A stretch of 64,000 bases of DNA from Hyphomonas oceanitis SCH89 (lineage in GTDB: Bacteria > Pseudomonadota > Alphaproteobacteria > Caulobacterales > Hyphomonadaceae), in assembly GCF_000685295.1 (NCBI RefSeq), contig NZ_ARYL01000020.1, positions 19,854-83,853 of the forward strand, given 5' to 3'. The translations under genes and the position numbers were made by a program. Of the stretch, positions 25,363 through 46,168 are shown in pieces; within the stretch, counting starts at the first letter, position 1; every line of letters begins with the position of its first letter. Under the pieces are notes generated by a model that was not told the origin of the DNA, searched no databases, and saw only the letters and a list, made by a program, of their open reading frames with translations.

Positions 25363-25393
25363 GCCCCAAGTTGGCTTGTGGAAAGGAGAATGC

Positions 25394-25411
25394 CATAAAG
25401 TCAACTTTATG
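25394..25411. promoter_or_regulatory. 18-bp palindrome in the XRE / ECF sigma divergent promoter
   Basis: CATAAAGT-CA-ACTTTATG is a perfect inverted repeat, 31 bases upstream of the XRE start and 88 bases upstream of the sigma start, in an AT-rich stretch. Related AAGTT/AACTT half-sites recur up to 25470. It is a probable XRE operator; the link to the XRE protein is inference. Confidence 0.55.
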
Positions 25412-25499
25412 TTTTCGCTGGAAAACAAACTGAACTTAAACTATACGTTGAAGTTATCGAAAAACTTATAGTCCACGTTTGGCTGGAGGTTCGGAATCA

Positions 25500-26105
25500 G
25501 TGGAGAAAATTGAAACCCACTCTTTGTCGATGGCGCTACAGGCTCCCGAATTGTCGATCGGAACAGCCCCAGGTGGGTCTCCCGGGCTCGCGCAAATGTA
25601 CCGGTCGCTCCATACCGAACTCCTTCGTTTCGCCCGCTTGCGCATTGGCGCGGCCGATGCTGAAGATCTTGTCCAGGAAGCCTTCATCTCTGCCAAACGC
25701 GCCTATGCAGACAAGCCGACGGAAGAGTTGCGCCCTCTTCTCTACACGATCCTGCGCAACCTGACCCGCGACTATCTAAAATCAGGTTATGTCAGACACC
25801 GCCGCCAAAGTACCGATATCGGCGATGAGGAAGATCGGCTCGCCTGTCGCAGAACCCTGAACCCGGAGCAGCAGCTGATGGATAGTCAAATCCTGGTCGT
25901 CGCGCAGGCTGCCCTTGGCAAGCTGAAACCGCGCCAGAGAGAGGCGCTCGAACTCCACCGGCTCGAGGGCCTGACACACAATGCCATTGCCGAGCGCCTC
26001 GGCGTATCGCCACGCACTGTAAGGAGTGATATAGCCAATGCTCTGGGAGCTGTTTCGAAAGCCCTTTTGAAATCCGGCCTCCCGCGCAATGACAGGGCTA
26101 AGTGA
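25500..26105 (+). CDS. ECF (FecI-type) sigma factor of the lasso cluster
   Basis: About 201 residues from a GTG that follows GGAGG by 11 bases; a TTG at 25479 precedes the ribosome site. Sigma-70 region 2 is at about residues 35-95 (LRFARLRIGAADAEDLVQEAF, LLYTILRNLTRDYLK). Region 4 is near 140-190 (LKPRQREALELHRLEGLTHN, AIAERLGVSPRTVRSDI). With the adjacent FecR and an STN-containing receptor it forms a cell-surface signalling system. It is expected to activate the receptor and isopeptidase genes. Confidence 0.93.
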   Translation: MEKIETHSLSMALQAPELSIGTAPGGSPGLAQMYRSLHTELLRFARLRIGAADAEDLVQEAFISAKRAYADKPTEELRPLLYTILRNLTRDYLKSGYVRHRRQSTDIGDEEDRLACRRTLNPEQQLMDSQILVVAQAALGKLKPRQREALELHRLEGLTHNAIAERLGVSPRTVRSDIANALGAVSKALLKSGLPRNDRAK

Positions 26106-26115
26106 ACCCCGCGTG

Positions 26116-27132
26116 ATGAACGACAATGACGAGGAAACCGGCCGGCTTGAAGCCGCTGCGCTTTGGTATGGCGATCTCCAGGCACCCGATGTGGACCTTG
26201 CTACCTGGGATGCTTTTCGCGTCTGGGAGCGCGATCCCCGCAATGCGGCGGCCTTCCGGCAAATCGAGGCAAGCGTGCCGATCATCGATCGTTCGCTCAG
26301 GCTGCGCACGGCCGCGGCCGATGTCACCACTGTGCCCGCCAAGCCGCGCCGCTCGCGACGGACAGTCGGTGCTGCGCTGGCCACGGCCGCAGCGGTTCTC
26401 GCACTGGGCGCAGCTCTCCTGCTGAACCTCCGGGCGCCTGAATTGCCAAGTCCTTTGACATATGCCAGCGACGTTGGCGAACAGCGCAGCGTCATGCTCA
26501 TCGACGGATCAGTGGTCACCCTCAATACAGACACCGCGATTGCAATTCTCTACACTTCGCGCGAACGCCATGTCAGCCTGGAGCGGGGGCAGGCTATATT
26601 CGAGGTGGCCAGGACGGGCGTACCGTTCGTGGTGGAGGCGGGCGCCAGCCGGACGCGCGCTATCGGAACCGCGTTTGAGGTATATCTCAAGCCATCCGGT
26701 GTCGCCATCACACTCCTCGAAGGATCGGTTCACGTTACAGCCTCTGAAGAAGACTCCCTGCCAAACAGTGAGCGCTTGGACCCCGACGAGCGGCGCGGCA
26801 GACGCCTCGCGCCCGGCGACCGGCTGAGCATTGCCGCAGATGGCACCCAGGTCCTTTCGCAAGTTGACATCACGACAGGCCCGACGTGGCGCCAGGGCAT
26901 CGTTCAGTTCGACAATGTGACACTGGAGGAAGCTGCGGCTGAACTGAACCGGTATTCCGATACGAAAATTATCGTGCCCGACGCGCGCTTGGCATCTGAA
27001 CGCATCAGCGGGACGTTCCAGGCCGATGCGCCTGCGGATTTCGCTGCAAATCTGGTTCTCATGTTGCCCGTAACCATCGAAGAGATCGACAGTCAGATCC
27101 TGCTGGTGCCATCCGGTCCGACACAGCCCTGA
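26116..27132 (+). CDS. FecR-family anti-sigma factor
   Basis: About 338 residues from the ATG at 26116; an in-frame ATG at 26089 overlaps the sigma gene. Order: DUF4880-like N-terminal region (EEAAALWYGDLQ-type, with TWDAFRVWERDPRNAAAFRQ), one membrane helix at about 85-110 (TVGAALATAAAVLALGAALLL), periplasmic FecR domain (SVMLIDGSVVTLNTDTAI, RHVSLERGQAIFEV), and a C-terminal STN-like unit (VQFDNVTLEEAAAELNRYSD). It should hold the sigma factor until the receptor's STN domain signals occupancy. Confidence 0.92.
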   Translation: MNDNDEETGRLEAAALWYGDLQAPDVDLATWDAFRVWERDPRNAAAFRQIEASVPIIDRSLRLRTAAADVTTVPAKPRRSRRTVGAALATAAAVLALGAALLLNLRAPELPSPLTYASDVGEQRSVMLIDGSVVTLNTDTAIAILYTSRERHVSLERGQAIFEVARTGVPFVVEAGASRTRAIGTAFEVYLKPSGVAITLLEGSVHVTASEEDSLPNSERLDPDERRGRRLAPGDRLSIAADGTQVLSQVDITTGPTWRQGIVQFDNVTLEEAAAELNRYSDTKIIVPDARLASERISGTFQADAPADFAANLVLMLPVTIEEIDSQILLVPSGPTQP

Positions 27133-27569
27133 TTACCCCGGCGGACGCTGAAGAATCTGACGGTAGGGCGTCCCTCAGTGTCAGCACGGATCAAGCTCGC
27201 AATACGCAAGCGGCATGTCATAGGTCGCACATGACCCTTGCCTGCAAGGTGTCTGGTTGCAGTTGATGAAAACCGTCGCGCCAGAGGCGGCGTCCGTCAG
27301 CGCGGCGGAATACGGACCCGGTCTTTGAGTGGATGCCGGATGCTCCGATCTCCCAGGAAACCAAGCGAGTGCAATGCGATCGCTCACATTGGGGCGTTTA
27401 TCCGCAATCGGTAGTTCTGGAGAGGCGGGCTGAAAAGCGCCGTTCCGGGCAGAGGACATCCGTTCACAATCCAAATATTTTCCTGCCGCTTCTTCGGGCT
27501 CGCCTCGTTGAGGGTGTTGACTGCCGGGATGGAATGCCTGGCCGGGGTCAAGCAAATCCGGAGGGGACC
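27133..27569. promoter_or_regulatory. 437-base leader/promoter region of the lasso receptor gene
   Basis: No plus-strand gene with a ribosome site is present before the receptor. An inverted repeat GGACGC (27143) / GCGTCC (27168) just after fecR could be a weak terminator. The region is long enough for a separate promoter, probably the target of the ECF sigma factor. A cysteine-rich minus-strand frame (27181-27555) is considered accidental. Confidence 0.4.
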
Positions 27570-30341
27570 ATGATCACAGCATCATCATTCAAGCGATATT
27601 TTGTCAGCATTGCAGCGGTTGCGCTGGCTGCAGGTTCCCCCGAGGGACGTGCTTGGGCCGACCCATTCAATGCGAGCGAGTCAGTCCACCTCATGATCGA
27701 TGAAGACACACTCGGAGCGTCGCTTCATGCCTTCGGCAAACAGTCAGGCGCCCAGATCCTCTTCTCCGAAACCTCTGTCTCGGGTCGTGCCGGTGTGCGC
27801 CTGGACGGCACTTATACGGCTGCCGCGGCGCTTGAGGCGCTTCTGAACGGGACGGATCTCGAAGCCGTGCGAGGGCAGGGCAACACCTTTATTGTTCGGC
27901 ATCGGAGCAATCAAAAAAAAGAGACATTGAAAGACCCGGATTTGCCTCGACGCGTCTCCGACACGCCCGCGGTCGCTTCTGATGCTGAGGCAGATGCCTC
28001 AAGTCCTGAGCCTTTGATGGTGGACAAAATTATTGTGACGGGCACCAGCTTGCGCGGCATCACGCCTGAAAGTTCGCCGCTCCAGATTTACTCCCGCGAT
28101 GATATACTCGGTTCAGGCGTGACAACGACTGAGCAGTTCATCAGGACGCTGCCGCAGAATTTTGGCGGTGGGTCGACTGAGCTCGCACCATCTGGACTGC
28201 CAGGCGACAGTAATTCACAGTTCAACAATATTTTCGGATCTGGCGCCAATCTGAGGGGGCTCGGGTCCGGCGGCACATTGACATTGCTTAATGGTAATCG
28301 GCTCGCGCCAACTTCAGAAATTGGCGACTTTGTGGATCTCTCTCTGATCCCAATCTCGGCACTCGAGCGCGTGGACGTTATGACCGATGGTGCGTCGTCC
28401 ATTTATGGCGGTGACGCGGTTGCGGGCGTCATGAACTTTATCTTGCGGGATGATTTCGAGGGCGCCGAAACGGCCGTGCGTTATGGGGCTGTGACGCAGG
28501 GCAATCTCGAGGAATACCGGCTCAGCCAGACACTGGGTACGGCCTGGCAAAGCGGTAACGTGATCGCAACGTACGAGTATTTTGATCGTGACAATCTCTC
28601 GCTGGCTGACCGTCCGGATATCCCGGTCCCGACTCAGACGGACGGAGCGCCGATTTCGAATGTCGGGCTCTTCGATCTTTTGCCGCAACAGACACGCCAA
28701 AGCGGACTTCTTTCGCTCAGGCAGTCGGTCAATGCCGATCTGGATGTTTCAGTGTCGGGACTTTATTCGAAGCGCGAGGCCGACAGTCTCTCTGTCTATG
28801 CGAGCAATACAAGCTCGGTTCTGGGTTTCGAAGCCTCGTCAGAATTGCAGTCGTTCAGTGCCAGCGCAACATATACAATCTCGCCTCGCTGGGCAGTGAC
28901 GCTCGATTCAACCTATAGCAATATCCACAATATCGAGACGGCGCAGACCCTTTTACCAGAACCTTTCGAACCTAGCGTCAAGGTCACGCATTCTGATCTC
29001 TATTCGGCTGATCTCAGGCTGAATGGTGATTTGTGGCGCATTGGTGGAGGGACCGTAAAGAGCGCATTGGGCGTCCATGTACGCCGTGAAACATTCGTCA
29101 ATGAGCAGCGAGGCGAAGGCGCCGAGCGCGATGGCGAGCGTGATGTAAGCGCTGTCTATGGTGAATTGCTTGTCCCTTTTTTTGGATCTGGGAACGCTGT
29201 CCCGGGTATTCAGCGGCTTGAACTGAACGTGTCGGGTCGACTTGACGATTACAGCGATTTTGGCTCCACAGTGAACCCGAAAATCGGGGCTTTATGGTCG
29301 CCGATTAGCGGGTTGATTGCGCGTGGCAGTTATAGTGAGTCCTTTGCGCCGCCTCCGCTTGGACGTACAGGTGACCTCAACAGAGTCGCGGCGGTGGTTC
29401 CATATTCGTATATTCTGGGACTGCTAGGCGGTATCCCTGCGCCGGATCCTTCACTGGAAGGCGTGGATTATCTTCAGACGTCCGGAACGGTTGCTGATCT
29501 CGAGCCAGAGACGTCTCGGACGTATACGGCGGGTATTGATTTTACCCGCCACACGGGTCGTCACGACTGGTCAGTTCGAACCAATTACTATGACATCGCC
29601 TTCGAGGGCCGTCTCGGGTCAACGCCGATACCCCAGAACCTGCCCGCCGTACTGGCCCCCAGTATTGCCTTCAATGATCCGGATGCCTTTCCGAATGGCA
29701 CCATCATTTTCTTTCCGAGCGCAGCCGAACTTGATGCCCTTGAGGCTTCGCTGAGCCAGCCAGTGATCTTCTTGGGCGGGGGCAATAGCCTGGACAATGT
29801 CGGTATCATCAATAACAGCGCAGTCGTCCGAAACCTTGCTTCCACCCGGACAAGTGGAGTCGATATTCAAGTCGATTATGCAACAGAAACCGACTGGGGA
29901 AATATATCGGCGGGGATCAATGCCAATCATATACTCGACTTCACCCAGCAGGCGTCTCCGACAACGCCCGAGGTAGTAGTTCTCGATACATATCTGAACC
30001 CAGTCGATCTTCAGCTCCGAGCCCATGTTAGCGTATCGGTAGGGGGCTTAGCCGGCAACGTGTTCGTCAACTATGCTGATAGCTACAAGACTGATGAGAC
30101 CGACACTGCTGCGCCGATCGCTGCGTGGACAACGATCGATACGTCCTTGAGCTATGCGTTAGGTCAGCGCCAGAACCCTTGGCTCGACGGGACCACGTTC
30201 AACCTCTCCGTGACGAACCTGCTCGATCAATCACCACCTCATACGCCTTCGGTTGGCACCAGTCGCATTGCTGGGTTCGACCCGGCGAATGCATCCCCAC
30301 TTGGTCGCTTCGTCGCCATTGAAATTCGGAAGGCGTTTTAG
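27570..30341 (+). CDS. TonB-dependent receptor with STN domain (lasso cluster)
   Basis: About 923 residues from the ATG at 27570 preceded by GGAGGGG; the signal peptide follows (FVSIAAVALAAGS). The STN signalling domain covers about residues 35-110 (GASLHAFGKQSGAQILFSET, ALEALLNGTDLEAVRGQG). The plug contains DKIIVTGTSLRG (TonB-box-like), LRGLGSGGTLTLLNGNRLAP and DGASSIYGGDAVAGVMNFIL. The barrel ends in FVAIEIRKAF with a terminal Phe. In isopeptidase-type lasso clusters such receptors are thought to recognise and import the lasso peptide or a complex of it and to signal through FecR. It is followed by the isopeptidase gene after 3 bases. Confidence 0.93.
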   Translation: MITASSFKRYFVSIAAVALAAGSPEGRAWADPFNASESVHLMIDEDTLGASLHAFGKQSGAQILFSETSVSGRAGVRLDGTYTAAAALEALLNGTDLEAVRGQGNTFIVRHRSNQKKETLKDPDLPRRVSDTPAVASDAEADASSPEPLMVDKIIVTGTSLRGITPESSPLQIYSRDDILGSGVTTTEQFIRTLPQNFGGGSTELAPSGLPGDSNSQFNNIFGSGANLRGLGSGGTLTLLNGNRLAPTSEIGDFVDLSLIPISALERVDVMTDGASSIYGGDAVAGVMNFILRDDFEGAETAVRYGAVTQGNLEEYRLSQTLGTAWQSGNVIATYEYFDRDNLSLADRPDIPVPTQTDGAPISNVGLFDLLPQQTRQSGLLSLRQSVNADLDVSVSGLYSKREADSLSVYASNTSSVLGFEASSELQSFSASATYTISPRWAVTLDSTYSNIHNIETAQTLLPEPFEPSVKVTHSDLYSADLRLNGDLWRIGGGTVKSALGVHVRRETFVNEQRGEGAERDGERDVSAVYGELLVPFFGSGNAVPGIQRLELNVSGRLDDYSDFGSTVNPKIGALWSPISGLIARGSYSESFAPPPLGRTGDLNRVAAVVPYSYILGLLGGIPAPDPSLEGVDYLQTSGTVADLEPETSRTYTAGIDFTRHTGRHDWSVRTNYYDIAFEGRLGSTPIPQNLPAVLAPSIAFNDPDAFPNGTIIFFPSAAELDALEASLSQPVIFLGGGNSLDNVGIINNSAVVRNLASTRTSGVDIQVDYATETDWGNISAGINANHILDFTQQASPTTPEVVVLDTYLNPVDLQLRAHVSVSVGGLAGNVFVNYADSYKTDETDTAAPIAAWTTIDTSLSYALGQRQNPWLDGTTFNLSVTNLLDQSPPHTPSVGTSRIAGFDPANASPLGRFVAIEIRKAF

Positions 30342-30344
30342 ACA

Positions 30345-32942
30345 GTGGCAACGACAGGTAATGTGTCTACCGCGCACCGCTACGCGTTTCCCATCCTTAG
30401 AAATGCGATACTCGCTGCTGTCCTGCTTTTGACGCAGCTTTTTGCTGCGGCTATGGCTGACTCCAGGTCTCTTTCCCTGGATGACATGCTGAAAGTTGAA
30501 GGCTTAGGGACGGCCACAATTGACCCGACAGGCCGTTGGCTCATTTATGAGCAGCTGCGGCCCTATGACGAAATTCCCGATTATAGTTTTCGAACCTATG
30601 CATTCGGCAAATCCGGTCACCAGTTATGGCGCTATGACCTGGCGTCTGGCGCTCCCCCGGTTTTGTTGCCGGGGCTCGATCCCGTTCCGCATGCGTGGCT
30701 TGACGGGTTTTCCCCATCAGGTCGCTTTCTTAGCCTTATGCAGTATCGGTTCGGGGATCTCACTATCAGCGCATATGACATGGTACGCGAGCGCAGCGTG
30801 TCCTTTGCCCACACACCTGCATTCAGCAGAACGGGCGATTTCAACCCCGTCTGGATTTCAGAAACTGACCTTGTCTTTTCTGCGCTACCTCAAGGTGACC
30901 AACCCGCCACAACCAGCGTGCGTGCTTTAACCGGCAAGCGACTAAGCGAGGCTTGGCAGGACGCATGGACAGGTACCACATCGACGGCGGATGAAGTGCG
31001 ATCAAGGCCTCCCGGGGCGGCTGACAGCCATGCGGCAGGCCAACTTGTGCGTGCTAATGCGCTTTCTGGCAGAACCGAGATCCTTGCAGAGGGGCTTTAT
31101 GCAGATATTCGCGTTTCGCCAGACCATTCTCAGTTGGCAGCATTAGCTGTTTCACCTCCGGATCAGGTTGACCCCGAGGTGCTTGTCGAGAACGACCCAC
31201 GTCATTTTACGCTTACGCTGTTTGACCTGGAAAAAAATGCGTCCCGCGTGTTGGCGGGGAGCTTAGAATTTATGCCCTATACGATCAGCTGGGATCCAGC
31301 CGGACGGCGCTTGGCAGCCTTTGCCTGGGAGCGCGGTGGATATCCTCGGGATGGGAGATTTGTCGTGATCGACACATCGACCGGGCAAGTCACCCGTTAT
31401 GACCATGATGGTCTCGACCTCGTGTCCGAGCGCGAAAGAGGGGGCATTCAGAGACCAGAACGCGTGTCTTTTCTTGACGATAGGCTGGCGATTTTCGCGC
31501 GTAAGATACCAAAAGGCGAGGATCCGACGCCGCGGTTTTCCTATCAGGACTTGCGGCCGGAAGCTCCTCCAAGAGCAGACTGGTATGCGGTGTCGCCACA
31601 AGGCCGCCATGTCAATCTGACTGCGAAAGTCGGAGCCACATCGCCAATTCCTGTCCATGCTGGCCCGAACGAGCTCACTGTGTGGGGCAGTGAGGGGATA
31701 TATCGGCTTGATCGATACGGGATCCGGGACCGACTAATGCCGGGCAGGGCAGACAAGTTCCGCTATCTGCCGCATGGGACGTTTTCCACCCGCGCAAGCT
31801 TGGTTCGCCCGGATTTTGTCGACGAAGCAATGTTTACGTTTCAGCTGGGAGGAAAGGCGCAGATCGCCCTTGTGGACCTACGCGCCAAACAACTTGGTCA
31901 GAGTACGATTATTGACGCACCAGACGCCGACGCGCTTCCGATCGCAGCCTCCATCCCTGCGGAGAAGGTGGTGTTTCGATCCCAAACAGGTTCTGTCACA
32001 CGTGTCTTTGCGACCGGCACAAAATCCAAGGGGGCGACCACGCAAATCGCTAATCTCAACACTCACCTTCAAGATATTGATTTCGGAAAGTGGAGCAGTG
32101 TTCAGTATGTTGCAACGGATCCGGAGGGCCTTTTGCCAGACAGGACGTTGGAGACATGTCTCCTTTTGCCTCCGGATGCCGAACCCGGCGATCGGTTCCC
32201 ACTTATTGTGGATATCTATCCGGGTGTCGCAGGCCGCTGCTCAGCTATGGTCCCTGCGTTCGACTATCCCGATCCCCACTCGCCCTACCTATGGGCAGGA
32301 AAAGGATACGCTTATGCCAGAGTCGCAACGCCAAGCGACTTCATCCGCACGGTCGAGGGGCCGATTGCGGGCATGCCAACGCTCATAGACGCTGGCGTCG
32401 ATGCACTTATTGATACGGGTCAGGTGGATCCGTATCGGATCGCATTGCACGGCTTTAGTCAGGGCGGAATCTCGGCACTTTATGTCGCGGCCCACACATC
32501 TCGGTATCGTGCAGTGATCGCGAAAAATAGCTGGGCAGACCTTTTCAGTCACTACTTTGGCGCCGTCGGCATTTATGGACTTCTATATGACGAATTCGGC
32601 GCATATACGGGCTACGACTCCGTGCGAGGCAGCGACTTTGGAATTGGCCACACGCCATTTGTTGATCCCGGCATATACTACCGTAATAGCCCTGTGTTCT
32701 TAGCAAACCAGATCGACATGCCTGTTCTCCTGATGCATTCGGACCTGGACAGTTTCGATATGGCGCAATTTGACGAGATGTTTGGTGCGCTCAAGCGGGA
32801 AGGAAAGGATGTGCGCTATATACGCTACTGGGGCGAGGGCCATGGTCCATCGTCACCTGCGAATATTCGGGACATGTGGAAACGTATGCTGACATTTCTC
32901 AATGAGTATGGAGTTGCACCGGGTATTAGGAGCGACGATTGA
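30345..32942 (+). CDS. Lasso peptide isopeptidase (S9 prolyl-oligopeptidase family)
   Basis: 865 residues from a GTG, with GGAAGG about ten bases upstream. A signal peptide (ILAAVLLLTQLFAAAMADS) predicts a periplasmic enzyme. The N-terminal half is a beta-propeller (LDDMLKVEGLGTATIDPTGR). The C-terminal alpha/beta-hydrolase domain shows the triad: Ser705 in HGFSQGG, Asp802 in HSDLDSF, His833 in WGEGHGP. Context with lasso genes identifies it as the AtxE-type isopeptidase, which opens the macrolactam ring of the cluster's own lasso peptide. The stop overlaps the convergent cyclase gene by 17 bases. Confidence 0.9.
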   Translation: MATTGNVSTAHRYAFPILRNAILAAVLLLTQLFAAAMADSRSLSLDDMLKVEGLGTATIDPTGRWLIYEQLRPYDEIPDYSFRTYAFGKSGHQLWRYDLASGAPPVLLPGLDPVPHAWLDGFSPSGRFLSLMQYRFGDLTISAYDMVRERSVSFAHTPAFSRTGDFNPVWISETDLVFSALPQGDQPATTSVRALTGKRLSEAWQDAWTGTTSTADEVRSRPPGAADSHAAGQLVRANALSGRTEILAEGLYADIRVSPDHSQLAALAVSPPDQVDPEVLVENDPRHFTLTLFDLEKNASRVLAGSLEFMPYTISWDPAGRRLAAFAWERGGYPRDGRFVVIDTSTGQVTRYDHDGLDLVSERERGGIQRPERVSFLDDRLAIFARKIPKGEDPTPRFSYQDLRPEAPPRADWYAVSPQGRHVNLTAKVGATSPIPVHAGPNELTVWGSEGIYRLDRYGIRDRLMPGRADKFRYLPHGTFSTRASLVRPDFVDEAMFTFQLGGKAQIALVDLRAKQLGQSTIIDAPDADALPIAASIPAEKVVFRSQTGSVTRVFATGTKSKGATTQIANLNTHLQDIDFGKWSSVQYVATDPEGLLPDRTLETCLLLPPDAEPGDRFPLIVDIYPGVAGRCSAMVPAFDYPDPHSPYLWAGKGYAYARVATPSDFIRTVEGPIAGMPTLIDAGVDALIDTGQVDPYRIALHGFSQGGISALYVAAHTSRYRAVIAKNSWADLFSHYFGAVGIYGLLYDEFGAYTGYDSVRGSDFGIGHTPFVDPGIYYRNSPVFLANQIDMPVLLMHSDLDSFDMAQFDEMFGALKREGKDVRYIRYWGEGHGPSSPANIRDMWKRMLTFLNEYGVAPGIRSDD

Positions 32943-34764
32943 TTCCATGCCGACCCACACGAATAGCTTTCCAGGTCTGAAGCCAGGATTCGATGGAATA
33001 GTAAGCCAGCAACAGGCTGCCAGAGCTCGCCATACGATAGTCATCGCCGGAAAAAAACGATGCGACATCTCGCGGCTCGATCAACCCCCTCCCCGCCAGC
33101 TCGCCGTACGTGAGCGCCTCGACGATTTCGCGGCGGTAGGCCGTTACTCGATCTGTAAAGTATCGGGATGCATGTCCTTTGTTCATCCGATGACGGATCT
33201 CGTCAGGGATGGAGCCTTTGAAGGCGCGCCTGGCAAGGCCGCGGCTCGTCGCGTCAGACGTGAGCAGGTAGCAGGGCAGGCGAAGGCATAAATCGATAAG
33301 GGGCTGGGCTATGAGGGGATGAGTGGTCTGGACTGCACCGGGTTTGAAGTATGGCTCCCGCATTTGAAACATATGTAAGAGCGTGCTGACCTGATCAAAT
33401 TTTGCTGGTGGCAATCCGCCCGACACACGTATCCAGTCGGGGAGCACACTCTGACGATCCAGATTGGCCTGAACGTGGCGATTGATGTGTGTCCAGCGTC
33501 CGGCGATGGCTGCTTCCATCGCGCTGGTTCCACGGCATCCGACTAGCGGTGGCAAGGTCTTCCGGAGAACCTGCCAAATTGACTTGCCTGAGAGTCTGGC
33601 GGCGTCAACCAGGCCCTGGGCCGTCTCCAGACATATGCCGTGATTGCGGACATGATCTGCAAAGCTGAGCGGACTTCGGGACGCCAGGAACAGATGGTCT
33701 CCACCCTGTCCCGTCATCAGGGTCGTTCCAGGTGTTCGAAACGATTCCGGAAGGAGCCCGGCCGGATCTGGCGAAAGGAACTGGCGATGAGGACGCACGC
33801 TAGCCGGATGCCGACCGAGTGAATCGAGACCGGACTGAGGTTCGGCTAGGATTTCTATCAGCTCGCATCCGCTTGCCTCTGCCGCCAAGCGAGCATAATG
33901 CGCCTCAGAAGCATCATCAGAATCCATTATGTAATGTACCGCGCGAACCTGTCCTCTGGGGCGGGCGGCGCAAAGGCAATGGAGAACAATTGTCGAATCT
34001 AAGCCTCCGGAGAGACTGACAACAATATCGGATCGATCCCTGGCGGAGGCTTCGACAACGTATTGGACCGTGGCCCTCAGTTCCTCGGCTGCTGTGTCTC
34101 GATGCGGTTCGTAAACATCCCGAGCAATCGCGCGAGGATCCCATAAACGGGTTCGAAATGAACCGCTTTTACTGATCGTCAGCTGCTCGCCGCCGAGGAG
34201 CTCTGATACCTCTTTCAATCCCGTAGAGCCGTTTATGATCTTATCATATGAGAGTAGCGTACGAACGTGTTCTTCATTGATGGAAAAGTTGGTCAGGTCC
34301 AGAAACGTGCAATTCTCCAGGTGGGAAAATACCAGCGTCACACCGTTTTGGTTGGCGAAGTAGCAGGGAATGGACGCGGTTGGATCGAGAATCACAGTGG
34401 AAGCGTCGGCCGAGGCCAGAAAAGCAACATAGTTGCCCCAATACCTATCAATCAGCGCTTGGCCCGTCGTGCGATAAAGTATCCCTTGCTCGTCTGGCGG
34501 CAAACGCGAGAGCGCGTCACTGCTTCTTCCTTTTTGATACAGTCGACCGAACACGGCGCCGTTGCAGTTTGGATCAATTCCCTGAAGCGGAAGAAGATTG
34601 TTTCGGCTGCCAGCGCCACTCAAGTCATAGATCGCAAATCCGGGATGGCGAACAGACGGAGCTTCAGGGCGAAAATTGGAGCTTATATCATTGTGAATTC
34701 CGTCGGCCGCTGAGCAGGCCGGCACTTCATGCTGGTCCCAAATCATTGCGAAGAATGATAGCAT
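32926..34764 (-). CDS. Lasso peptide macrolactam synthetase (asparagine-synthetase-like, C protein)
   Basis: 612 residues. An N-terminal glutaminase-like domain lacks the catalytic Cys2 of asparagine synthetase (starts MLSFFAMIW), as in all lasso cyclases. The synthetase domain has the ATP-binding PP-loop VSLSGGLDST at about residues 247-256. The protein adenylates the ring Glu/Asp side chain of the leaderless core and joins it to the N-terminal amine. An AGGAGG-like ribosome site lies 12 bases after the B gene, so B and C are co-transcribed. Length is normal for proteobacterial lasso C proteins. Confidence 0.93.
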   Translation of the reverse strand: MLSFFAMIWDQHEVPACSAADGIHNDISSNFRPEAPSVRHPGFAIYDLSGAGSRNNLLPLQGIDPNCNGAVFGRLYQKGRSSDALSRLPPDEQGILYRTTGQALIDRYWGNYVAFLASADASTVILDPTASIPCYFANQNGVTLVFSHLENCTFLDLTNFSINEEHVRTLLSYDKIINGSTGLKEVSELLGGEQLTISKSGSFRTRLWDPRAIARDVYEPHRDTAAEELRATVQYVVEASARDRSDIVVSLSGGLDSTIVLHCLCAARPRGQVRAVHYIMDSDDASEAHYARLAAEASGCELIEILAEPQSGLDSLGRHPASVRPHRQFLSPDPAGLLPESFRTPGTTLMTGQGGDHLFLASRSPLSFADHVRNHGICLETAQGLVDAARLSGKSIWQVLRKTLPPLVGCRGTSAMEAAIAGRWTHINRHVQANLDRQSVLPDWIRVSGGLPPAKFDQVSTLLHMFQMREPYFKPGAVQTTHPLIAQPLIDLCLRLPCYLLTSDATSRGLARRAFKGSIPDEIRHRMNKGHASRYFTDRVTAYRREIVEALTYGELAGRGLIEPRDVASFFSGDDYRMASSGSLLLAYYSIESWLQTWKAIRVGRHGINRRS

Positions 34765-34775: not shown

Positions 34776-35471
34776 CTAAACGGTCATTATTCGGCGGTAC
34801 TCTTTGGTGTTGTCGGCGTGGTCATTCAAAATCAGACCGTCCTGTTCTACCCAACAGTGCGCGCCAAAGGGGGATAGGCGAACGCCGAATACCCAATCTG
34901 TGGGAATATTGAACAAGGCGAGAAACTTTATCAGGACGAGGCTGCGAAAGCGGCACGCGTCGTCTGTTGTTAGCAGAAATGGTGACAAGGCATGGAAGTC
35001 AGCTACCAGCGTATGAACCTGAGCGCTCGGTGGGTGCGGTCGGCGTAACGCGTTCTTCTTCCATTTCCGAACTGCCCGCACAACGCGCGCGAACGAGCCT
35101 GTTCGCTCAAGCGTCCAGCAGGAAATGAGAGCATAAGCTAGGGGAACCAGGTGGCTAAACGCAGTGTGAAAAGGCTCTTCAGAGTAGAGATCCAGAATAC
35201 TATCCCGCGCTTCTGTGATCGGCAAAAGAGTCGTCGTCGATTGGTCGTGCGCAGCTGGCGCTATCACAGCTCGATCTACAAGACGGTTGGCAAAGCGACG
35301 TGCACCGTCGCTTAATTGAGCGGGAGCGGATGCTGCGCATATCTCATGCAACCAGTCAGTCTGTTCGGATGTTAGCCTGAAGTAACGGTCCGCATTGACA
35401 TCAAGAAGGATGATCGCGGCCTCAAACTGACAAGCATAAACATCCGGAGAAAGAGCAAAAAAATGTGTCAT
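34776..35471 (-). CDS. Lasso peptide leader-binding and cleaving protein (fused B1-B2)
   Basis: About 231 residues from the ATG at 35471. Residues 1-75 (ACQFEAAIILLDVNADRYFRL, LTSEQTDWLHEICAA) form the PqqD-like RRE (B1) that grips the leader. The C-terminal part is a transglutaminase-like cysteine protease (B2) with the triad Cys173 (DDACRF), His205 (FGAHCW) and Asp217 (LILND). The fusion is the usual proteobacterial form. It removes the leader after Arg26 of the precursor and hands the core to the cyclase. Confidence 0.93.
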   Translation of the reverse strand: MTHFFALSPDVYACQFEAAIILLDVNADRYFRLTSEQTDWLHEICAASAPAQLSDGARRFANRLVDRAVIAPAAHDQSTTTLLPITEARDSILDLYSEEPFHTAFSHLVPLAYALISCWTLERTGSFARVVRAVRKWKKNALRRPHPPSAQVHTLVADFHALSPFLLTTDDACRFRSLVLIKFLALFNIPTDWVFGVRLSPFGAHCWVEQDGLILNDHADNTKEYRRIMTV

Positions 35472-35598
35472 ACTTTCACGGCGATGGCCGGCCCGTACTT
35501 GATCCTGGACTGCTATATGCAGTCGAAAATTGCGACAATTAGTGGTTGGCCGGAGCATCTGGGTTGCCCGAAAGAAGCTCCGGCCGATTGGATGCCGT

Positions 35599-35625: not shown

Positions 35626-35754
35626 CTAGTCGCGTGAGCTCTGGCCGAAGAACTCAATGAGCCCGTTGGGTTGCCCACGGGTCTCTTCGGAGACTGAGCC
35701 AAGTTCGATCAAATCAAGGAATTCTTCCTGATGGTCATCTGAATTCGTATACAT
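35626..35754 (-). CDS. Lasso peptide precursor (A)
   Basis: 42 residues from the ATG at 35754, with AGGAGAA upstream; a longer frame to 35841 has no ribosome site. The 26-residue leader ends LIELGSVSEETR. This repeats the alphaproteobacterial pattern LI-LG--S-ETR seen in astexin-type precursors, with the essential Thr at the penultimate leader position. The predicted core is GQPNGLIEFFGQSSRD (16 residues). Gly1 should join the side chain of Glu8 in an eight-residue ring, leaving an eight-residue tail FFGQSSRD with Phe9/Phe10 or Gln12/Arg15 as possible plugs. Identification rests on the leader motif, the ring acid at position 8 and the adjoining B and C genes. Confidence 0.93.
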   Translation of the reverse strand: MYTNSDDHQEEFLDLIELGSVSEETRGQPNGLIEFFGQSSRD

Positions 35755-35952
35755 ACCGATTCTCCTATTCGCATAATCGTCGCCGAGATTGACGACAGGT
35801 AGAATAATGATCCTATCTAAAGTAGAGTCAATAATCGACAAAATTAAAATCCAGAAAGAAATACAAGCAGTTTTTGCTCGGGCATGGTTGGCTTCACGAA
35901 GGTTTTGTGCAGTCGCATCTGAAGTGCGGGCAGGCTCCGCCCCGAGGCGATA

Positions 35953-37308
35953 CTAAGCCGTGTCTTCGTTGATCTGGGGAAGAAGAACCGGCAACGGCGA
36001 TTGCTGCAACAGGCGTCGCGCCTTTTCCACATCACCGATTCGACGCGATGTCTCGGCACGGATCAACGCATAATAGGCACGAGCGTAGGGATCTGTTGAA
36101 AAAAGAGCCGGAGAACTCAGCACTGAGGCAAACGCTCTGTCGGGCGTTCGCCAACCTGGCCCGTAAGTTTCAGCAAGGTAGCGATCCGGATTGTCAGGCA
36201 CGGTCCATGTCCTGCCGCCATAGACGGCTTTCTTCAACCCGAATGCGCTGAAACGCCATGCGATATCACCCGGCAAGGATCCGAGGCCGCAATGCAGCTT
36301 ATCTTCGCGCTGCTCGTAGATGAAAACATCGACGCCGGTCCCGTCAACATTAAGAGCGAAGTACTGGTCATTTGGCCGGGCGCGGCGGGCTAGCATGAGC
36401 CCGGGATCCTCGCGGAGGATACGGTATATGTCTGGCGCTGTGCCGGGGCTGGAAAGCACGCCAATATCCACATCCCGGTCATAAACAAGCGGACCGCCAT
36501 TGCGGTGAAAGCCGAGCAGCGTTCCTGCGGCCAGAAACGGCGTGACGCCACTTGCCTGAAATATGGCGAAGACTTTCAACAGGGCGGCTATTGCCGCATC
36601 TGGCTTGAATTGAGGTCTTGGCGAAATCTTCGCCGCACCGGGCGCGCTAAAGACAAGCGAGTTTTGTCTATGTTCCAGGGCAGCCCGATAGTCCCCTGTC
36701 TCATAGCAGGCCCGCGCGAGGCAGGCATAAGCGGTCGATTGATCCTCAAACCGTGCAAAATTCTGCCTGACAAAGCCGACCGCATTCTCGTCACGTCCTG
36801 CATCGAGAAGCGCATTCATGCATCTGACAAATAGGATGGGCTGGACGGCCGGGTCTTCGCAGAGGTGACAAAGTAGTCTGGCCGCTCGGGCGATGGCGTC
36901 TAGGCGCTCTTCCTCGCGAGGCGTGATATCTGCGATCGATTGCAGCGATCGCCATGCATGAGGCTGGGCCGTGACCGCATAGCGAAAAGCGTTCAGGGCA
37001 TTCTCACGGTCTTCAAGCAGATGCAGGGCAAGCCCCTTTCCGTGCAAAGCCTGTGCATCGCGGGGATTGGTCGCAAGGATATTCGCGAACACGGTTAGCG
37101 CGTCAGAGGCGTGTCCCGCACGCAGGTGAGCGGCAGCCAGAGACTGGAGAATGGGGAGATGGTCCGGCCATAGAGAACTTGCTTCGTCCAGCACGCTAAT
37201 CGCTTCGTCCGGAAGGCCCGCCGCGAGGCAACGCAGCCCGGAGCGAAGCGCGTCCTGCCAGCGGCGCTCACCCCGCGCCGGTTGGTCTGCCTGAGCATCT
37301 GTCGCCAC
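35953..37308 (-). CDS. TPR protein with LicD-like nucleotidyltransferase domain
   Basis: About 451 residues from a GTG at 37308 that follows GGAGG by 5 bases; a TTG at 37320 precedes that site. TPR-like helices fill about residues 10-225 (AISVLDEASSLWPDHLPILQ, AQALHGKGLALHLLEDRENA). A LicD/fukutin-like domain follows: VTPFLAAGTLLGFHRNGG and LVYDRDVDIGVL (about 255-285) carry the GTLLG and DxDxD-like metal-binding motifs. LicD enzymes transfer phosphocholine or phospho-sugars. It lies 198 bases upstream of the lasso precursor on the same strand. A tailoring role is possible but unproven; a surface glycan role is the alternative. Confidence 0.8.
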   Translation of the reverse strand: MATDAQADQPARGERRWQDALRSGLRCLAAGLPDEAISVLDEASSLWPDHLPILQSLAAAHLRAGHASDALTVFANILATNPRDAQALHGKGLALHLLEDRENALNAFRYAVTAQPHAWRSLQSIADITPREEERLDAIARAARLLCHLCEDPAVQPILFVRCMNALLDAGRDENAVGFVRQNFARFEDQSTAYACLARACYETGDYRAALEHRQNSLVFSAPGAAKISPRPQFKPDAAIAALLKVFAIFQASGVTPFLAAGTLLGFHRNGGPLVYDRDVDIGVLSSPGTAPDIYRILREDPGLMLARRARPNDQYFALNVDGTGVDVFIYEQREDKLHCGLGSLPGDIAWRFSAFGLKKAVYGGRTWTVPDNPDRYLAETYGPGWRTPDRAFASVLSSPALFSTDPYARAYYALIRAETSRRIGDVEKARRLLQQSPLPVLLPQINEDTA

Positions 37309-37468
37309 CTTGGCCTCCAAATGAGAAATCGAGCAGTTGAAAATCGTAATGTTAAACCTTAAGTGGGAATATAATACAACGTGAAGATTGGTATTTGGCT
37401 AAAGTGGCCTTGCCGCCGGCCTTGTGGACCGGGCGGCGGGGAGCGTTCGAAGACTTTTTGAAACCGGG
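37309..37468. promoter_or_regulatory. Divergent promoter region between the LicD-like gene and luxR
   Basis: 160 AT-rich bases separate the two divergent genes, with runs such as GGGAATATAATACAACG near 37365-37381 that could hold a -10 element. No clear 18-20-bp lux box was found by eye, so direct LuxR control is undecided. Confidence 0.4.
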
Positions 37469-38206
37469 ATGACACCCATGCGAAACTATGACGGTAGCGC
37501 AGTTCTCGAAGCCATCAGGCTCATTCTCGCAACACATAGCGATAGCGCCGCACTGATCGCTTTGGCCGGCTTCATCGAAGCCTACGGATTTGAAAAGATT
37601 TTCCTGGGCCATCTCGTCAATCCCTACAGCGTGCCGCTGAAGGATATTCTCTATCTTTCCAACTGGCCGGAGGAACTCAAGGCTGCCCGAAAGAAGCAGG
37701 CGGCTATCCTGCATGACCCGGTGGCGATCTGCGCCATACGGTCCAAACGGCCATTCACCTGGGCTGAAGCGCGTGCTCATGCCACGCGCTCTGGCCGCAG
37801 GATTGTCGACCTCGTCCATGGGTTTGGTCTGACACATGGCATGATGTTTCCCATGCATGCGCTCGACAGCGTGTCGGGTGGCGTATCACTTGGAGGCCCC
37901 CTCAAAACCGACCTGTCACCGATCCAGATCAGAGAATTGGAGATCGTTTGCCAGGCCGCCTATTATCATCTCGAGAGTATGCATGGTCCATTTCCCTATC
38001 AGAAGGTGGCCGAGCTTACCGGACGTGAAGCTGAATGCGTGACATTTGCCGCCTCGGGCAAATCCAACTGGGAGATCGCTCACATACTTGGCATTCAAGA
38101 GGACACGGTCAAGAAGACCCTGCGCCGGGCGAGCAACAAGCTGGACGCCGTCAATCGGACCCATCTGGTCGCGAGCGCGATTGCGCGTCATCAGATATTT
38201 CCCTGA
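37469..38206 (+). CDS. luxR: LuxR-family quorum-sensing regulator
   Basis: About 245 residues from the ATG at 37469 (alternatives: ATG 37478, GTG 37424). The autoinducer-binding domain spans about 10-165. It keeps the Trp and Asp of the ligand pocket (SNWPEEL, HDPVAI) and FTW, but the usual Tyr between them is not seen. The GerE-type helix-turn-helix is at about 180-240 (LTGREAECVTFAASGKSNWE, IAHILGIQEDTVKKTLRRA, ending AVNRTHLVASAIA). The luxI gene follows within 27 bases, so it is the cognate receptor for that signal. Confidence 0.92.
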   Translation: MTPMRNYDGSAVLEAIRLILATHSDSAALIALAGFIEAYGFEKIFLGHLVNPYSVPLKDILYLSNWPEELKAARKKQAAILHDPVAICAIRSKRPFTWAEARAHATRSGRRIVDLVHGFGLTHGMMFPMHALDSVSGGVSLGGPLKTDLSPIQIRELEIVCQAAYYHLESMHGPFPYQKVAELTGREAECVTFAASGKSNWEIAHILGIQEDTVKKTLRRASNKLDAVNRTHLVASAIARHQIFP

Positions 38207-38233: not shown

Positions 38234-38932
38234 ATGACGTCCCTGGAACATGATCCTTCTGCCACACAAGGAGAAGAAGCCGTGTTCAAAATCATCACGC
38301 CTGACAACCGGGCCCAGAACAGTGCCCTCATCGATGCCATGCATGAGATGCGTTACCGTATCGTCGTCGGCGAGTGGGGATGGGATATTCCCGACATCGC
38401 GAAGGGCTATGACAAGGATCAGTTCGACACCGATGACACCGTCTATGTCATCGTACGAAGCAGGGCCGGCGATGTGGTCGGCTCGTCGCGGCTCAATCCA
38501 ACCATCCACCCGCATATGATGAGCGAACTCTTTGCCGATTATTGCGATCTCCAGCCCTATCCAGTGGGCAGGGACGTCTGGGAATGTTCGCGCTTTGTCA
38601 CAGACCGTGCTTTGATGGAGGATGCCGTTGACGATTTCAGAGTTCGGTGTCGTCTCGGCCTCGGCCTGACGGCCTGGAGCCTCGATAACAAGGTTTCGCG
38701 GTTAAGCTGGCTCACACATCAGAAGTTTTTCAATTTGGTGCAGAAGGTTTGGGATACCGAGCCGCTTGGCTTGCCGAAGCGCGAAGGGGACGGTTGGGCC
38801 TGGATCCCGGCTGTTTCCCGCATGGATGAGGCGACATTTGATCGCCAACTGGATCGCTACAGAAACGCCGACGCGATCGTCGCCCAGTATATGGGCGCTA
38901 GGCCAGCCCTAAGCCAGGCGCAAGTCGTATGA
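38234..38932 (+). CDS. luxI: Acyl-homoserine-lactone synthase (LuxI family)
   Basis: 232 residues. Conserved synthase features are in order: RYRIVVGEWGWDIP (Arg and Trp of the SAM site), YDKDQFDTDDTVYVIV (Asp pair), and GSSRLNPTIHPHMM followed by DVWECSRFVTD (Arg, Glu, Arg). It makes an N-acyl-homoserine lactone from SAM and acyl-ACP or acyl-CoA; the chain length cannot be read from sequence. A 20-residue N-terminal extension precedes the core, and a Met at residue 18-20 is absent, so the 38234 start is kept. It overlaps the dioxygenase gene by ATGA. Confidence 0.93.
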   Translation: MTSLEHDPSATQGEEAVFKIITPDNRAQNSALIDAMHEMRYRIVVGEWGWDIPDIAKGYDKDQFDTDDTVYVIVRSRAGDVVGSSRLNPTIHPHMMSELFADYCDLQPYPVGRDVWECSRFVTDRALMEDAVDDFRVRCRLGLGLTAWSLDNKVSRLSWLTHQKFFNLVQKVWDTEPLGLPKREGDGWAWIPAVSRMDEATFDRQLDRYRNADAIVAQYMGARPALSQAQVV

Positions 38933-39957
38933 CGGGCCGCAATGCGGTTTGTCTGACTGTCGCAGATCGTCATGCCTTTGCCGAGGATGGCGTTCTTTGC
39001 CTGCGCAATGCGCTGTCAGCAAACGAGGTTGATCTTTTGCGCGCGGCTGTTGACCGCCAAATAGCCAGCCTCGGATCCTCTTCCACGGGTTACGATTTCG
39101 AGGCAATCGCGCATCAGGTTTGGGGTGGGGACAGTATGGTCGAGACCGGTTCTGCAGACCGGTTCGATATGGAGCGGCTCAAGGACATGATCCGCGCAGA
39201 TCCTTTCTCCCGTCCCCTGCAGGAGACGGTCGGCACAGGACAGACCGGCCTCTTCTTCTACGACGTTGCGGCCTGGCGTCACGACAGAGGTGTCAGGCAG
39301 GTCGCCTTTGATTCGGCACTACCACAGATCGTAAGCCAACTGCTTGAGGCTCGCTATCTCAATTTCTGGGAGGATACGACCTTCGTTAAGGCTCCGCAAA
39401 CGCGGCAAAGAACAGCGTTTCATCAGGACCTTTCCTACTTTCAGATCGAGGGGGACCAGTGCGTCGTCGTCTGGATGCCGCTCGATCCAGCTGACCTTGC
39501 CAATGGTGTTACGCAATATGTCCGAGGGTCCCACCGATGGGATGAAATCTTTGCGCCCAATGTCTTTGTTTCACAGACTCCGATCGCCACTTCTGCTGAC
39601 AGCCGGTGTCCCGACATCGAAGCAGCTCAGGAACGCTACGACGTGATCAGCTTTGATGTCATGCCGGGCGATGTGATTATCCACCATGTGCGCACCGTGC
39701 ATGGTGCGGGGGGCAATCCGTCTGATCGGTGGCGGCGCGCAATGTCCTTTCGGTATTGCGGTGATAAAGTTCGGTATTTCGACCGGCCGGGTGCGATCAG
39801 CCAGGTTGGCGTCGCTCATGACCTGAAGAATGGTGACCGGCTCTTTTCGGCTGACTACCCTGTCGTCTGGCCAAGGCCTTGGCCGGGATTCCGCATGGCG
39901 GATGCTTTTGACGCGCAGATCTGTCTACAGAAGGGGTCCCAGGCGTCGACGGCCTGA
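38929..39957 (+). CDS. Phytanoyl-CoA dioxygenase-family protein linked to luxI
   Basis: 342 residues, Fe(II)/2-oxoglutarate oxygenase fold. The iron facial triad appears as HQD (TAFHQDLSYF, about residue 165) and a distal His (IIHHVRTVHGAGGN, about 250); a later Arg (WRRAMSFRY) can bind 2-oxoglutarate. It is translationally coupled to luxI. The luxR-luxI-phyH order is found in several alphaproteobacteria, which suggests that it modifies the acyl chain of the signal or a quorum-controlled metabolite, but this is not established. Confidence 0.88.
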   Translation: MTGRNAVCLTVADRHAFAEDGVLCLRNALSANEVDLLRAAVDRQIASLGSSSTGYDFEAIAHQVWGGDSMVETGSADRFDMERLKDMIRADPFSRPLQETVGTGQTGLFFYDVAAWRHDRGVRQVAFDSALPQIVSQLLEARYLNFWEDTTFVKAPQTRQRTAFHQDLSYFQIEGDQCVVVWMPLDPADLANGVTQYVRGSHRWDEIFAPNVFVSQTPIATSADSRCPDIEAAQERYDVISFDVMPGDVIIHHVRTVHGAGGNPSDRWRRAMSFRYCGDKVRYFDRPGAISQVGVAHDLKNGDRLFSADYPVVWPRPWPGFRMADAFDAQICLQKGSQASTA

Positions 39958-43939: not shown

Positions 43940-43976
43940 TGAAAATCATTCGCAATATTGTTGCGAGCTATTCTCA
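43940..43976. promoter_or_regulatory. Fur-like box upstream of the siderophore receptor
   Basis: Bases 43940-43954 read TGCGAATGATTTTCA on the minus strand, 12 of 15 matches to the 7-1-7 Fur consensus TGATAATGATTATCA. A weaker copy (9 of 15) follows at 43962-43976. A TTGACA element lies just upstream at 43925. Iron repression by Fur fits the two genes that follow. Confidence 0.6.
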
Positions 43977-44023
43977 AAACTGCTAGGGCGCCTCAAACAT
44001 CCAAACACAGAGAGAATTCGATC

Positions 44024-46168
44024 ATGCGCAACCGCAATGCTGTCTACAAAATCAGCCTTCTCATGGTGAGCACGGCCCTTTCAGCACTCATTGCGCAAGC
44101 CCAGGCATCCGACGAACGTGATTCCGATGAGTTGCGGCAGGAAACGGTGATCGTGACGTCCCGCGCACAGCAGCTTTACCGTGTGACCGAGACGACTTCT
44201 GGCAAGATGCCGATCGAGCCGCTGCTATCGACGCAGGCGATCACGGTCATCAATGCTCAACTGATCGAAGATCAGGGCGCGCGCGATGCGCAGGATCTGT
44301 ATCGCAACATCTCCGGAGTTAGCGTGTTCAGCTATGCGGGCGTTACGGCGCGTGGTTTCCGGCAGGAGGAGAACTTTTTTGATGGCCTGAGGGGCGACCC
44401 CTATGCCGGCTTCTCGGTGCCACAGCTGTTCAATGTGGAGCGCGTGGAGTTCCTGAAAGGGCCAGCCGGCATGCTCTATGGCGCGGGCGCGCCCGGCGGG
44501 CTGTTCAACTATGTGACCAAGAAACCGAGCGAGCAATTCGGCGCGACTGCTTCAGCCGTCTACGGCACGGAAGGACGCAAGGGCGCCTCTGTCGAAGTGA
44601 CGGGCGCGCTACCGATGGAGGGAGCGGCAGGTCGGCTTGGAATCTTTTACGAGGACCAGAATGGGCCACGCCGGAATGCGGGCTCCGAAACGGACATCTA
44701 TGATGCCGGTCTGAGCTTTGATCTCGGCGTGGCCGACCTTGTGCTGCAGGCGACGCGCTATGAGCAGAAGCTCGGCGGCAACCGGCTTCGCGGCGTACCG
44801 ACAGACGATCTCGGCAATTTCCTGGCGGACCGGCGCTGGAACCATAACGAGCCGACCGACTTCCTCGACCTCGAATCGAACGTGTTGCAGGCCAAGCTCT
44901 ATGCCGAGCCGATTGAGGGTCTGACGCTCGATGCTGGCATTCGCTACATGGATGGCACCGAGCGGCAGAAATACCATGAGCCGAGCGGCCTGTTCGATTC
45001 TGATGGCGACGGCGTTATCGATTCCTCACGGCGGCAGTTCCGCGACCAGTACAGACGCAATGAGGGCGTAAGCCTTGGCACCAACGCGGTCTGGTCAAAG
45101 CGGTTCGGGGCCATCGACAATCGGGTGCTGCTCGGGGCTGACTGGTACCGCAATGATGCCTACTTTACCGGCGTGTCGATCAGTGGCGCCAGCACGGCGA
45201 CGACCGGCCTGCCCACGCCGCTCAGCCTGCTTGATCCGGTCTACGGCAATACCGATCCCTCGACTTATATCTATCCGGCCACGCGCGTTACGGAGACGGT
45301 GCAGACCCGTTACGGATTCTATGCGCTGAACGAAGCCACGATGGGCCCGGTGATTGCCGTCGTCGGCGTTCGCCAGGATACGTTTGAAGACAAGGACCGG
45401 GTCGGGGGCACCACGTTTGAGGATAACGCAACCACATGGCGGGCAGGGCTCGTCTACCGCATCCGCGAGGATGTCTCGCTGTTCGGCCAATGGGCCACCA
45501 GTTTCGAACCACAGAGTGTCAGTGCGCAGAGCCCGCTGGCTGGTGGCCCGTTTGAGCCAACGGAAGGCGAGATCGTCGAGGGCGGGGTGAAGACGGAGCT
45601 TCTGGGCGGGCGTGTGCAGACATCCGCGTCGGTCTACCGGATCGTTAAGACCAACCTGCTGCAGGCTGATCCGCGCGGCGATGTGGACGGCGACGGTGTC
45701 GATGATCAGGTCGCGTTCGGCGAAATTACCAGCGATGGATTCGAAGCAGACCTGACGGCCGATATCACCCAGAACTGGGTGGGTACGGTTTCCTATTCCT
45801 ACAATGATGCCCGCATCACGAAGACGAATGATCTGTCGACCATCGACAGTAATGTCGGCGACAGGTTCGCCAATGCGCCGGAGAACACGGTCGGCTTCTG
45901 GACGCGCTATCAGGTGCCTGCCTGGAACACGGCGTTCGCTTTTGGCGGCGACTATGTCGATGTGCGCCAGAGCCTGAGCGGGCAGAAGGTGCGCCCATAC
46001 ATGATTTTCGACGCCTCGATCATCTATGAGATAGATGACTGGAAGGCCCTTCTGCGCGTCGACAACCTGTTTGACGAGACCTATGCATCAAGCGGCTTCA
46101 TTGACCGCACGGGCCACTTTCCGGGTGATCCGCGCTCTGTGTTCCTGGAAATCAGCCGCAAATGGTGA
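44024..46168 (+). CDS. TonB-dependent siderophore receptor
   Basis: About 714 residues from the ATG at 44024. Signal peptide ending AQAQASDE, TonB-box-like ETVIVTS, plug with VFSYAGVTARGFRQEENFFDG and FLKGPAGMLYGAGAPGGLFN (the siderophore-receptor signature), a 22-strand barrel, and a terminal FLEISRKW with Trp. There is no STN domain, so it is not a transducer. It is likely to import ferric siderophores. The Fur-like box and the following PepSY reductase support an iron role. Confidence 0.94.
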   Translation: MRNRNAVYKISLLMVSTALSALIAQAQASDERDSDELRQETVIVTSRAQQLYRVTETTSGKMPIEPLLSTQAITVINAQLIEDQGARDAQDLYRNISGVSVFSYAGVTARGFRQEENFFDGLRGDPYAGFSVPQLFNVERVEFLKGPAGMLYGAGAPGGLFNYVTKKPSEQFGATASAVYGTEGRKGASVEVTGALPMEGAAGRLGIFYEDQNGPRRNAGSETDIYDAGLSFDLGVADLVLQATRYEQKLGGNRLRGVPTDDLGNFLADRRWNHNEPTDFLDLESNVLQAKLYAEPIEGLTLDAGIRYMDGTERQKYHEPSGLFDSDGDGVIDSSRRQFRDQYRRNEGVSLGTNAVWSKRFGAIDNRVLLGADWYRNDAYFTGVSISGASTATTGLPTPLSLLDPVYGNTDPSTYIYPATRVTETVQTRYGFYALNEATMGPVIAVVGVRQDTFEDKDRVGGTTFEDNATTWRAGLVYRIREDVSLFGQWATSFEPQSVSAQSPLAGGPFEPTEGEIVEGGVKTELLGGRVQTSASVYRIVKTNLLQADPRGDVDGDGVDDQVAFGEITSDGFEADLTADITQNWVGTVSYSYNDARITKTNDLSTIDSNVGDRFANAPENTVGFWTRYQVPAWNTAFAFGGDYVDVRQSLSGQKVRPYMIFDASIIYEIDDWKALLRVDNLFDETYASSGFIDRTGHFPGDPRSVFLEISRKW

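Follow-up and report, generated by a model that had tools for sequence, protein, structure and literature searches.

A subterisin-family lasso peptide precursor of Hyphomonas oceanitis and a linked TPR-LicD/FKRP-like protein predicted to modify its tail

Subterisin, a lasso peptide of Sphingomonas subterranea, has a core that begins with Gly and a ring closed at Glu8, the same arrangement that is predicted below for a new precursor. Enzymes of the LicD/FKRP family usually act on glycans. FKRP is described as a ribitol phosphotransferase in the abstract of PMC10755465. In the available parts of two review texts, PsmN of the pseudomycoidin cluster is the sole nucleotidyltransferase-type lasso tailoring enzyme, and its mechanism and timing are left unresolved there (PMC9266682, PMC8498205). 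Here we describe a lasso peptide locus in a stretch of 64,000 nucleotides from Hyphomonas oceanitis SCH89 (contig NZ_ARYL01000020.1, positions 19,854 to 83,853 of the forward strand; this whole stretch is called the window, and coordinates are those of the window). At this locus the precursor gene, A, follows a gene for a tetratricopeptide-repeat (TPR) protein with a C-terminal LicD/FKRP-like domain, TPR-LicD for short, and the precursor core carries a tail Ser that is a candidate substrate of this protein.

Gene A occupies 35626..35754 on the minus strand, where translation gives 42 residues plus a stop, MYTNSDDHQEEFLDLIELGSVSEETR|GQPNGLIEFFGQSSRD (leader|core); the plus-strand frame of the same segment is interrupted by stops. 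The initial annotation had proposed a lasso precursor here, strand unstated, with an astexin-type leader, a ring of eight residues closed at Glu8 and a tail of eight. Translation confirms the reading frame and the leader pattern, seen as DLIELGSVSEETR with Thr at the penultimate position (leader, 35677-35754; core, 35629-35676; both on the minus strand). The first residue of the core is Gly and the last is Asp. Its sole acid within positions 7-9 is Glu8, the predicted ring acceptor (codon 35653..35655, minus strand), which makes an eight-residue ring the natural reading; the product would thus be a Gly1-Glu8 lasso with an eight-residue tail, as the annotation had it. A has the marks of a class II lasso precursor, i.e., Thr at leader position -2, Gly1, Asp or Glu at 7-9 and no Cys, and adjacent to it are B, coding for a transglutaminase-like peptidase, and C, coding for an Asn-synthase-like cyclase. 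By curated models the precursor belongs with subterisin: Pfam PF24178 (Subterisin) scored 31.2 bits, above its cut-off of 27, and benenodin membership (NCBIfam NF033522) was rejected at 26.5 bits, below a cut-off of 33. Given the sequence, the Pfam match and the B and C neighbors, A is almost certainly a lasso precursor. A related metagenome-assembled genome encodes an A peptide that is 98% identical, with an identical core, and another related genome has GQPNGLIELFGQNSRN. Neither the core nor the fragment QPNGLIEFF was found in a literature text search, a result that says little, since a subterisin core was missed too. A Shine-Dalgarno-like AGGAGA (35761..35766, minus strand) lies just 5' of the ATG of A.

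The TPR-LicD gene (35953..37320, minus strand, TTG start as listed) is directly upstream of A and encodes a predicted tailoring transferase. Pfam LicD matched the C-terminal domain alone at 25.5 bits (cut-off 22.6), covering 33 of 227 positions, and the whole protein at 23.0 bits. A fold search with the whole model returned mostly TPR structures, with FKRP ninth. Because the TPR structures swamped that search, the C-terminal domain was searched alone, and human FKRP then ranked first. FKRP was also the sole sequence-level match of the domain profile in the PDB, where the titles of FKRP structures include CDP-ribitol and a sugar acceptor. The catalytic Asp residues of the domain are invariant, so that both the fold and the Asp residues expected of LicD/FKRP enzymes are present.

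The TPR-LicD gene is closely linked to lasso precursors. Among 105 genomes of the family, 20 have it, at 27 places in all; in each case it lies directly upstream of A, once across contig ends. Order-wide there were 34 places in 24 of 398 genomes; at 33 of them a precursor shares the contig, and at the remaining one the link runs via overlapping contig ends. A class-wide draw of 367 genomes returned TPR-LicD only from this genome and from one 31%-identical outgroup, which had no lasso genes within the 12 kb read; in the order and class searches at most four candidates were scored per genome. Protein searching gave 67 relatives at E <=1e-10 among the best 7,995 candidates. Twenty-nine named loci extend the TPR-LicD clusters to Henriciella, Marinicaulis, Glycocaulis, Parvularcula and the gammaproteobacterium Luteimonas sp. 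XNQY3; the last has this gene set too, but its precursor is found elsewhere, between the putative isopeptidase gene, E, and a TonB gene. Precursors with an upstream-open frame or a differing leader were located by reading frames and relaxed patterns. The lasso B2 model found 34 places in 26 of the 105 family genomes, 26 with TPR-LicD and eight without. A plasmid search with the LicD domain yielded six distant matches, and no lasso gene was present in the annotations of the two of these plasmids that were examined.

Some individual loci deserve mention. On Octadecabacter arcticus plasmid pOA238_118 (L209) a LicD-domain protein stands beside a cytidyltransferase-family gene, near flagellin. In Parvularcula locus L168 (G215:C4), lasso-like precursors with at least two Cys in long tails adjoin a divergent TPR-LicD. 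Three Glycocaulis loci (L174, L175 and L192) have a B frame of only about 444 nucleotides, with A and TPR-LicD open, and L174 has no C within the 12 kb read; these are either decaying clusters or assembly faults. Hyphomonas sp. CY54-11-8 (L203) has frames for E and the TonB receptor that fall far short of their length in sister loci.

A Ser or Thr followed by Arg or Lys after position 8 is found in 28 of 31 unique TPR-LicD-linked cores; in the A core it is Ser14-Arg15 (35632..35637, minus strand), the predicted modification site. Among 49 unique benenodin-model cores of the order without TPR-LicD, the motif occurs once, in GVPLEDAKEGISTRDFYTP. The one-sided Fisher p for this contrast is 4e-17, a value that treats related cores as independent and compares sets gathered differently. 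When the tails were shuffled, 5.6 of the 31 cores on average, and never more than 14, had the motif. Position 8 is Glu in 30 of the 31; the patterns that found part of the linked cores required Asp or Glu at 7-9, not specifically Glu8. Two of the cores that miss the motif (L184 and L197) retain Asn-Ser without Arg or Lys, and none of the 27 invariant enzyme residues is lost at these two loci. The remaining exception is a precursor from Parvularcula that contains Cys. A second core from this genus was scored as positive through a doubtful Thr-Arg, and a third Parvularcula precursor (G215:C4) was excluded from the 31, the count being 28/32 if it is included. For these comparisons each distinct core was counted once, and a script removed leader residues that were still attached to a few cores. 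Seven of the 103 benenodin-model places (G139, G270, G315, G221, G095, G387 and G358) were dropped as not precursor-like or with an unassignable core, and G051:C22 was moved into the linked set owing to overlapping contig ends.

Several points caution against reading too much into the motif contrast. Sampling was unequal, the unlinked cores coming from the benenodin model alone and the linked cores also from patterns and named loci. In a tree of B (55 rows, one mostly unfilled), the rows linked to TPR-LicD fall to one side of a branch (92/39). Clusters that carry the enzyme look like a single clade, and the contrast therefore does not represent many independent events. The astexin-1 tail also has Ser-Arg, and no such enzyme is known for astexin-1; the dipeptide alone therefore proves nothing. 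The better argument for constraint comes from within the TPR-LicD-linked group, where ring residues 2-7 vary widely by eye and Glu8 and the Ser/Thr are kept.

On balance we favor the view that the tail Ser (Ser14) is modified by the adjacent TPR-LicD enzyme with transfer of a phospho-linked group, a view that draws on sequence comparison and predicted structure. From the observed gene content, linkage, motif, invariant catalytic Asp residues and predicted fold, we infer each of the following reactions. B would cleave after the leader Thr-Arg, and C would close the ring between Gly1 and Glu8, with the tail FFGQSSRD inside it. The TPR half of the upstream protein would hold the precursor or the lasso, and the C-terminal domain would take a group such as a phospho-alcohol or phospho-sugar from a nucleotide-activated donor and attach it to the Ser hydroxyl, the Arg after the Ser being a possible recognition mark. 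After leaving the cell, the product would be taken back up by the TonB receptor, and E would open it; the LuxR/LuxI pair encoded beyond TPR-LicD would tie production to cell density. A fuller version, which we offer tentatively and with some doubt, is a class of lasso peptides of Hyphomonas-type bacteria whose conserved tail Ser/Thr receives a phosphodiester-linked decoration from a TPR-FKRP/LicD enzyme. This would be the first case of a peptide substrate for this family of glycan enzymes, under dedicated acyl-homoserine-lactone-type LuxR/LuxI control and possibly with further oxidation by PhyH, a product of the same neighborhood.

The possibility must be considered that the lasso stays unmodified, that Ser/Thr-Arg/Lys is a mark for the TonB receptor or the isopeptidase, and that TPR-LicD alters a surface glycan, e.g., in immunity or uptake. 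The usual substrates of LicD/FKRP enzymes and the ligands named in the FKRP structure titles agree with such a role, as does the location of two more distantly related LicD-domain proteins close to flagellin or capsule genes, and the E and TonB genes are likewise conserved in TPR-LicD clusters. Yet the hydroxyl residue is retained where Arg or Lys is lost (L184 and L197), and L078, a LicD-free cluster with an E-like gene, is without the motif. Further, TPR-LicD keeps its place directly 5' of A throughout the family, and no known glycan genes adjoin it among the 19 open reading frames (ORFs) scanned in this window. We consider a role confined to surface glycans unlikely, though it is an explanation to be taken seriously. 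That TPR-LicD is a true nucleotidylyltransferase, adding AMP, CMP or UMP to the tail Ser/Thr, also seems improbable to us, given that FKRP leads the fold search of the C-terminal domain and that no other PDB entry matches the domain profile at the sequence level.

It might also be supposed that this is an ordinary subterisin/benenodin-type cluster and that the upstream TPR-LicD and LuxRI genes are unrelated neighbors. With a promoter-like site and a hairpin of its own, A does not require co-transcription with TPR-LicD, and one distant TPR-LicD occurs without lasso genes. The linkage already makes this supposition unlikely: all 34 places in the order are precursor-linked, one of them across contig ends, the association extends over Hyphomonas, Henriciella, Marinicaulis, Glycocaulis and Parvularcula, and Luteimonas has the same gene set although its precursor is placed elsewhere. 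We judge chance neighborhood to be very improbable indeed, and modification of the tail hydroxyl by TPR-LicD remains the reading that we prefer.

The promoter-like site upstream of A is a conserved TTGACTC, a -35-like element (35825..35831, minus strand) seen in an alignment of 30 upstream regions. Between it and the A start codon lies a conserved hairpin-forming repeat (35778..35797, minus strand). In 28 of the 30 regions (L184, with its precursor elsewhere, and L207 were left out) covariation was counted for a hairpin drawn from the same sequences: both sides of six of the seven pairs vary, and pairing holds in 90.7% of cells versus at most 72.6% in slid controls. One of five measures, that of further pair types, was no better than shuffled (159/500 shuffles). 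An Rfam search with the hairpin gave three chance-level matches and no credible family. The hairpin might act as an operator or form a 5' stem of the mRNA.

Beyond TPR-LicD, on the plus strand, are genes for a LuxR-type autoinducer-binding regulator (37424..38206, frame as listed, with an internal ATG at 37478; Pfam and NCBIfam), a LuxI-type autoinducer synthase (38234..38932; Pfam) and a PhyH-family oxygenase (38929..39957; Pfam), the last with a 4-base overlap with the LuxI frame. The order LuxR, LuxI, PhyH, an arrangement seen next to such clusters in Hyphomonas, is kept in 15 of the 29 named loci and in L003, a second lasso cluster of this genome. A search of the family for LuxI homologues with at least 60% identity gave 20 places, of which 19 lie no more than 3 kb from TPR-LicD. 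LuxI is near 19 of the 27 family TPR-LicD places; among the eight without it, G051:C160 lies at a contig end. A LuxI homologue of 70% identity at G054:C20:62322-62978 has one internal stop and is not beside TPR-LicD. The closest PDB match of PhyH is the MysH oxygenase (2e-34), and a second post-translational modification or a signal-modifying role is possible. Several LuxR-LicD intergenic regions (37320-37424 and its counterparts) share a block like GTTAAACCATAAGTAGGAA, which is perhaps a LuxR operator.

Downstream of A on the same strand are B, the leader peptidase (34776..35558, minus strand; lasso_biosyn_B2/Transglut_core3 by Pfam and NCBIfam models; Cys202 and His234 conserved), and C, the Asn_synthase-type macrolactam-forming enzyme (32926..34764, minus strand; Pfam; SGGLD motif at 252). 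Convergent to these, on the plus strand and assigned by Pfam, are E, of the S9 prolyl-oligopeptidase family (30345..32942; Ser705, Asp800/802 and His833 conserved), and genes for a TonB-dependent receptor (27333..30341), a FecR-type anti-sigma factor (26089..27132) and an extracytoplasmic function (ECF) sigma factor (25479..26105). By family precedent, we take the conserved residues of B, C and E to be catalytic. E scored 48.3 bits with the Atxe2-family equivalog NF033523, far below its cut-off of 400, and because of this weak likeness the isopeptidase role of E is only a predicted one. Neither an ABC transporter nor a kinase was present among the 19 ORFs. The ORF at 24683-25471 had no Pfam match and a translation unlike protein by eye, and was taken as a non-gene. 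At 43958-47382 (plus strand) are a further TonB receptor and then a PepSY_TM protein. The genome is 4.28 Mb in 188 contigs, and its second lasso cluster (contig C59, locus L003) has the core GGFNQGAEFAVGPNSRLIPIG and a parallel gene set; Hyphomonas chukchiensis carries the same precursor. This second cluster, the LicD/FKRP-like neighbor, the Ser/Thr-Arg/Lys tail site and the LuxR-LuxI genes had been overlooked in the initial annotation, whose reading of A is otherwise upheld.

Among the matches listed and the passages covered, literature searches, with subscription texts largely outside their scope, found no report of a LicD/FKRP-like lasso enzyme and, aside from one bare co-mention of both terms, none of a Hyphomonas lasso peptide. 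The single text in which lasso and LicD co-occurred concerns, judging by its title, a Bacillus that makes lichenysin. Among the matches listed for lasso and homoserine lactone, no such cluster was described in titles or abstract openings. With 31 unique cores that nearly all pair one tail hydroxyl with one enzyme, the modification site is testable. If the proposal is true, FKRP/LicD chemistry would be extended from glycans to a ribosomal peptide, and lasso peptides would be linked to quorum-sensing genes in Hyphomonas-type bacteria.

In comparison with known systems, TPR-LicD resembles the FKRP/LicD family in its fold match, its catalytic Asp motif and its above-cut-off Pfam LicD score, and differs from the glycan-acting members in its TPR half and its location in a lasso cluster. 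The A precursor passes the same PF24178 model as subterisin of S. subterranea, whose cluster is also described, in the available text, as lacking an ABC transporter (PMC11006600); the core sequences differ, and that text does not mention a LicD/FKRP-like gene or LuxRI for subterisin. With the astexin/benenodin-type isopeptidase clusters (AtxE2, SpI-IsoP), as described in the accessible portion of PMC9266682, the locus shares the A-B-C genes, the convergent S9 peptidase, the TonB receptor and the sigma/anti-sigma pair. Unlike in those clusters, E falls far below the Atxe2 equivalog cut-off and TPR-LicD precedes A, where a GntR-like gene is found there (PMC9266682). Metagenomic lasso BGC (biosynthetic gene cluster) 38, likened here by description only, had a tetratricopeptide-repeat gene cloned with A-B-C; it has a D gene (ABC transporter), the available text does not mention a LicD domain (PMC12670498), and it may or may not be of the present type. 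In the Bacillus pseudomycoidin system, PsmK/PsmN, an enzyme of the lasso cluster annotated as a nucleotidyltransferase likewise modifies a tail Ser, but a kinase acts first and the Ser is C-terminal, according to the parts of the reviews available (PMC9266682, PMC8498205). Here the Ser lies inside the core, which ends with Asp, and has Arg next to it on the C-terminal side; the enzyme is a TPR protein of LicD/FKRP-like type, and the 19 ORFs include no kinase, HPr-kinase-like or other, so that phosphoglycosylation of the pseudomycoidin type is not indicated. In sum, the precursor joins a known lasso family, and what is new, as judged from sequence, is the surrounding cluster type with its predicted FKRP-like tailoring enzyme and conserved tail hydroxyl.
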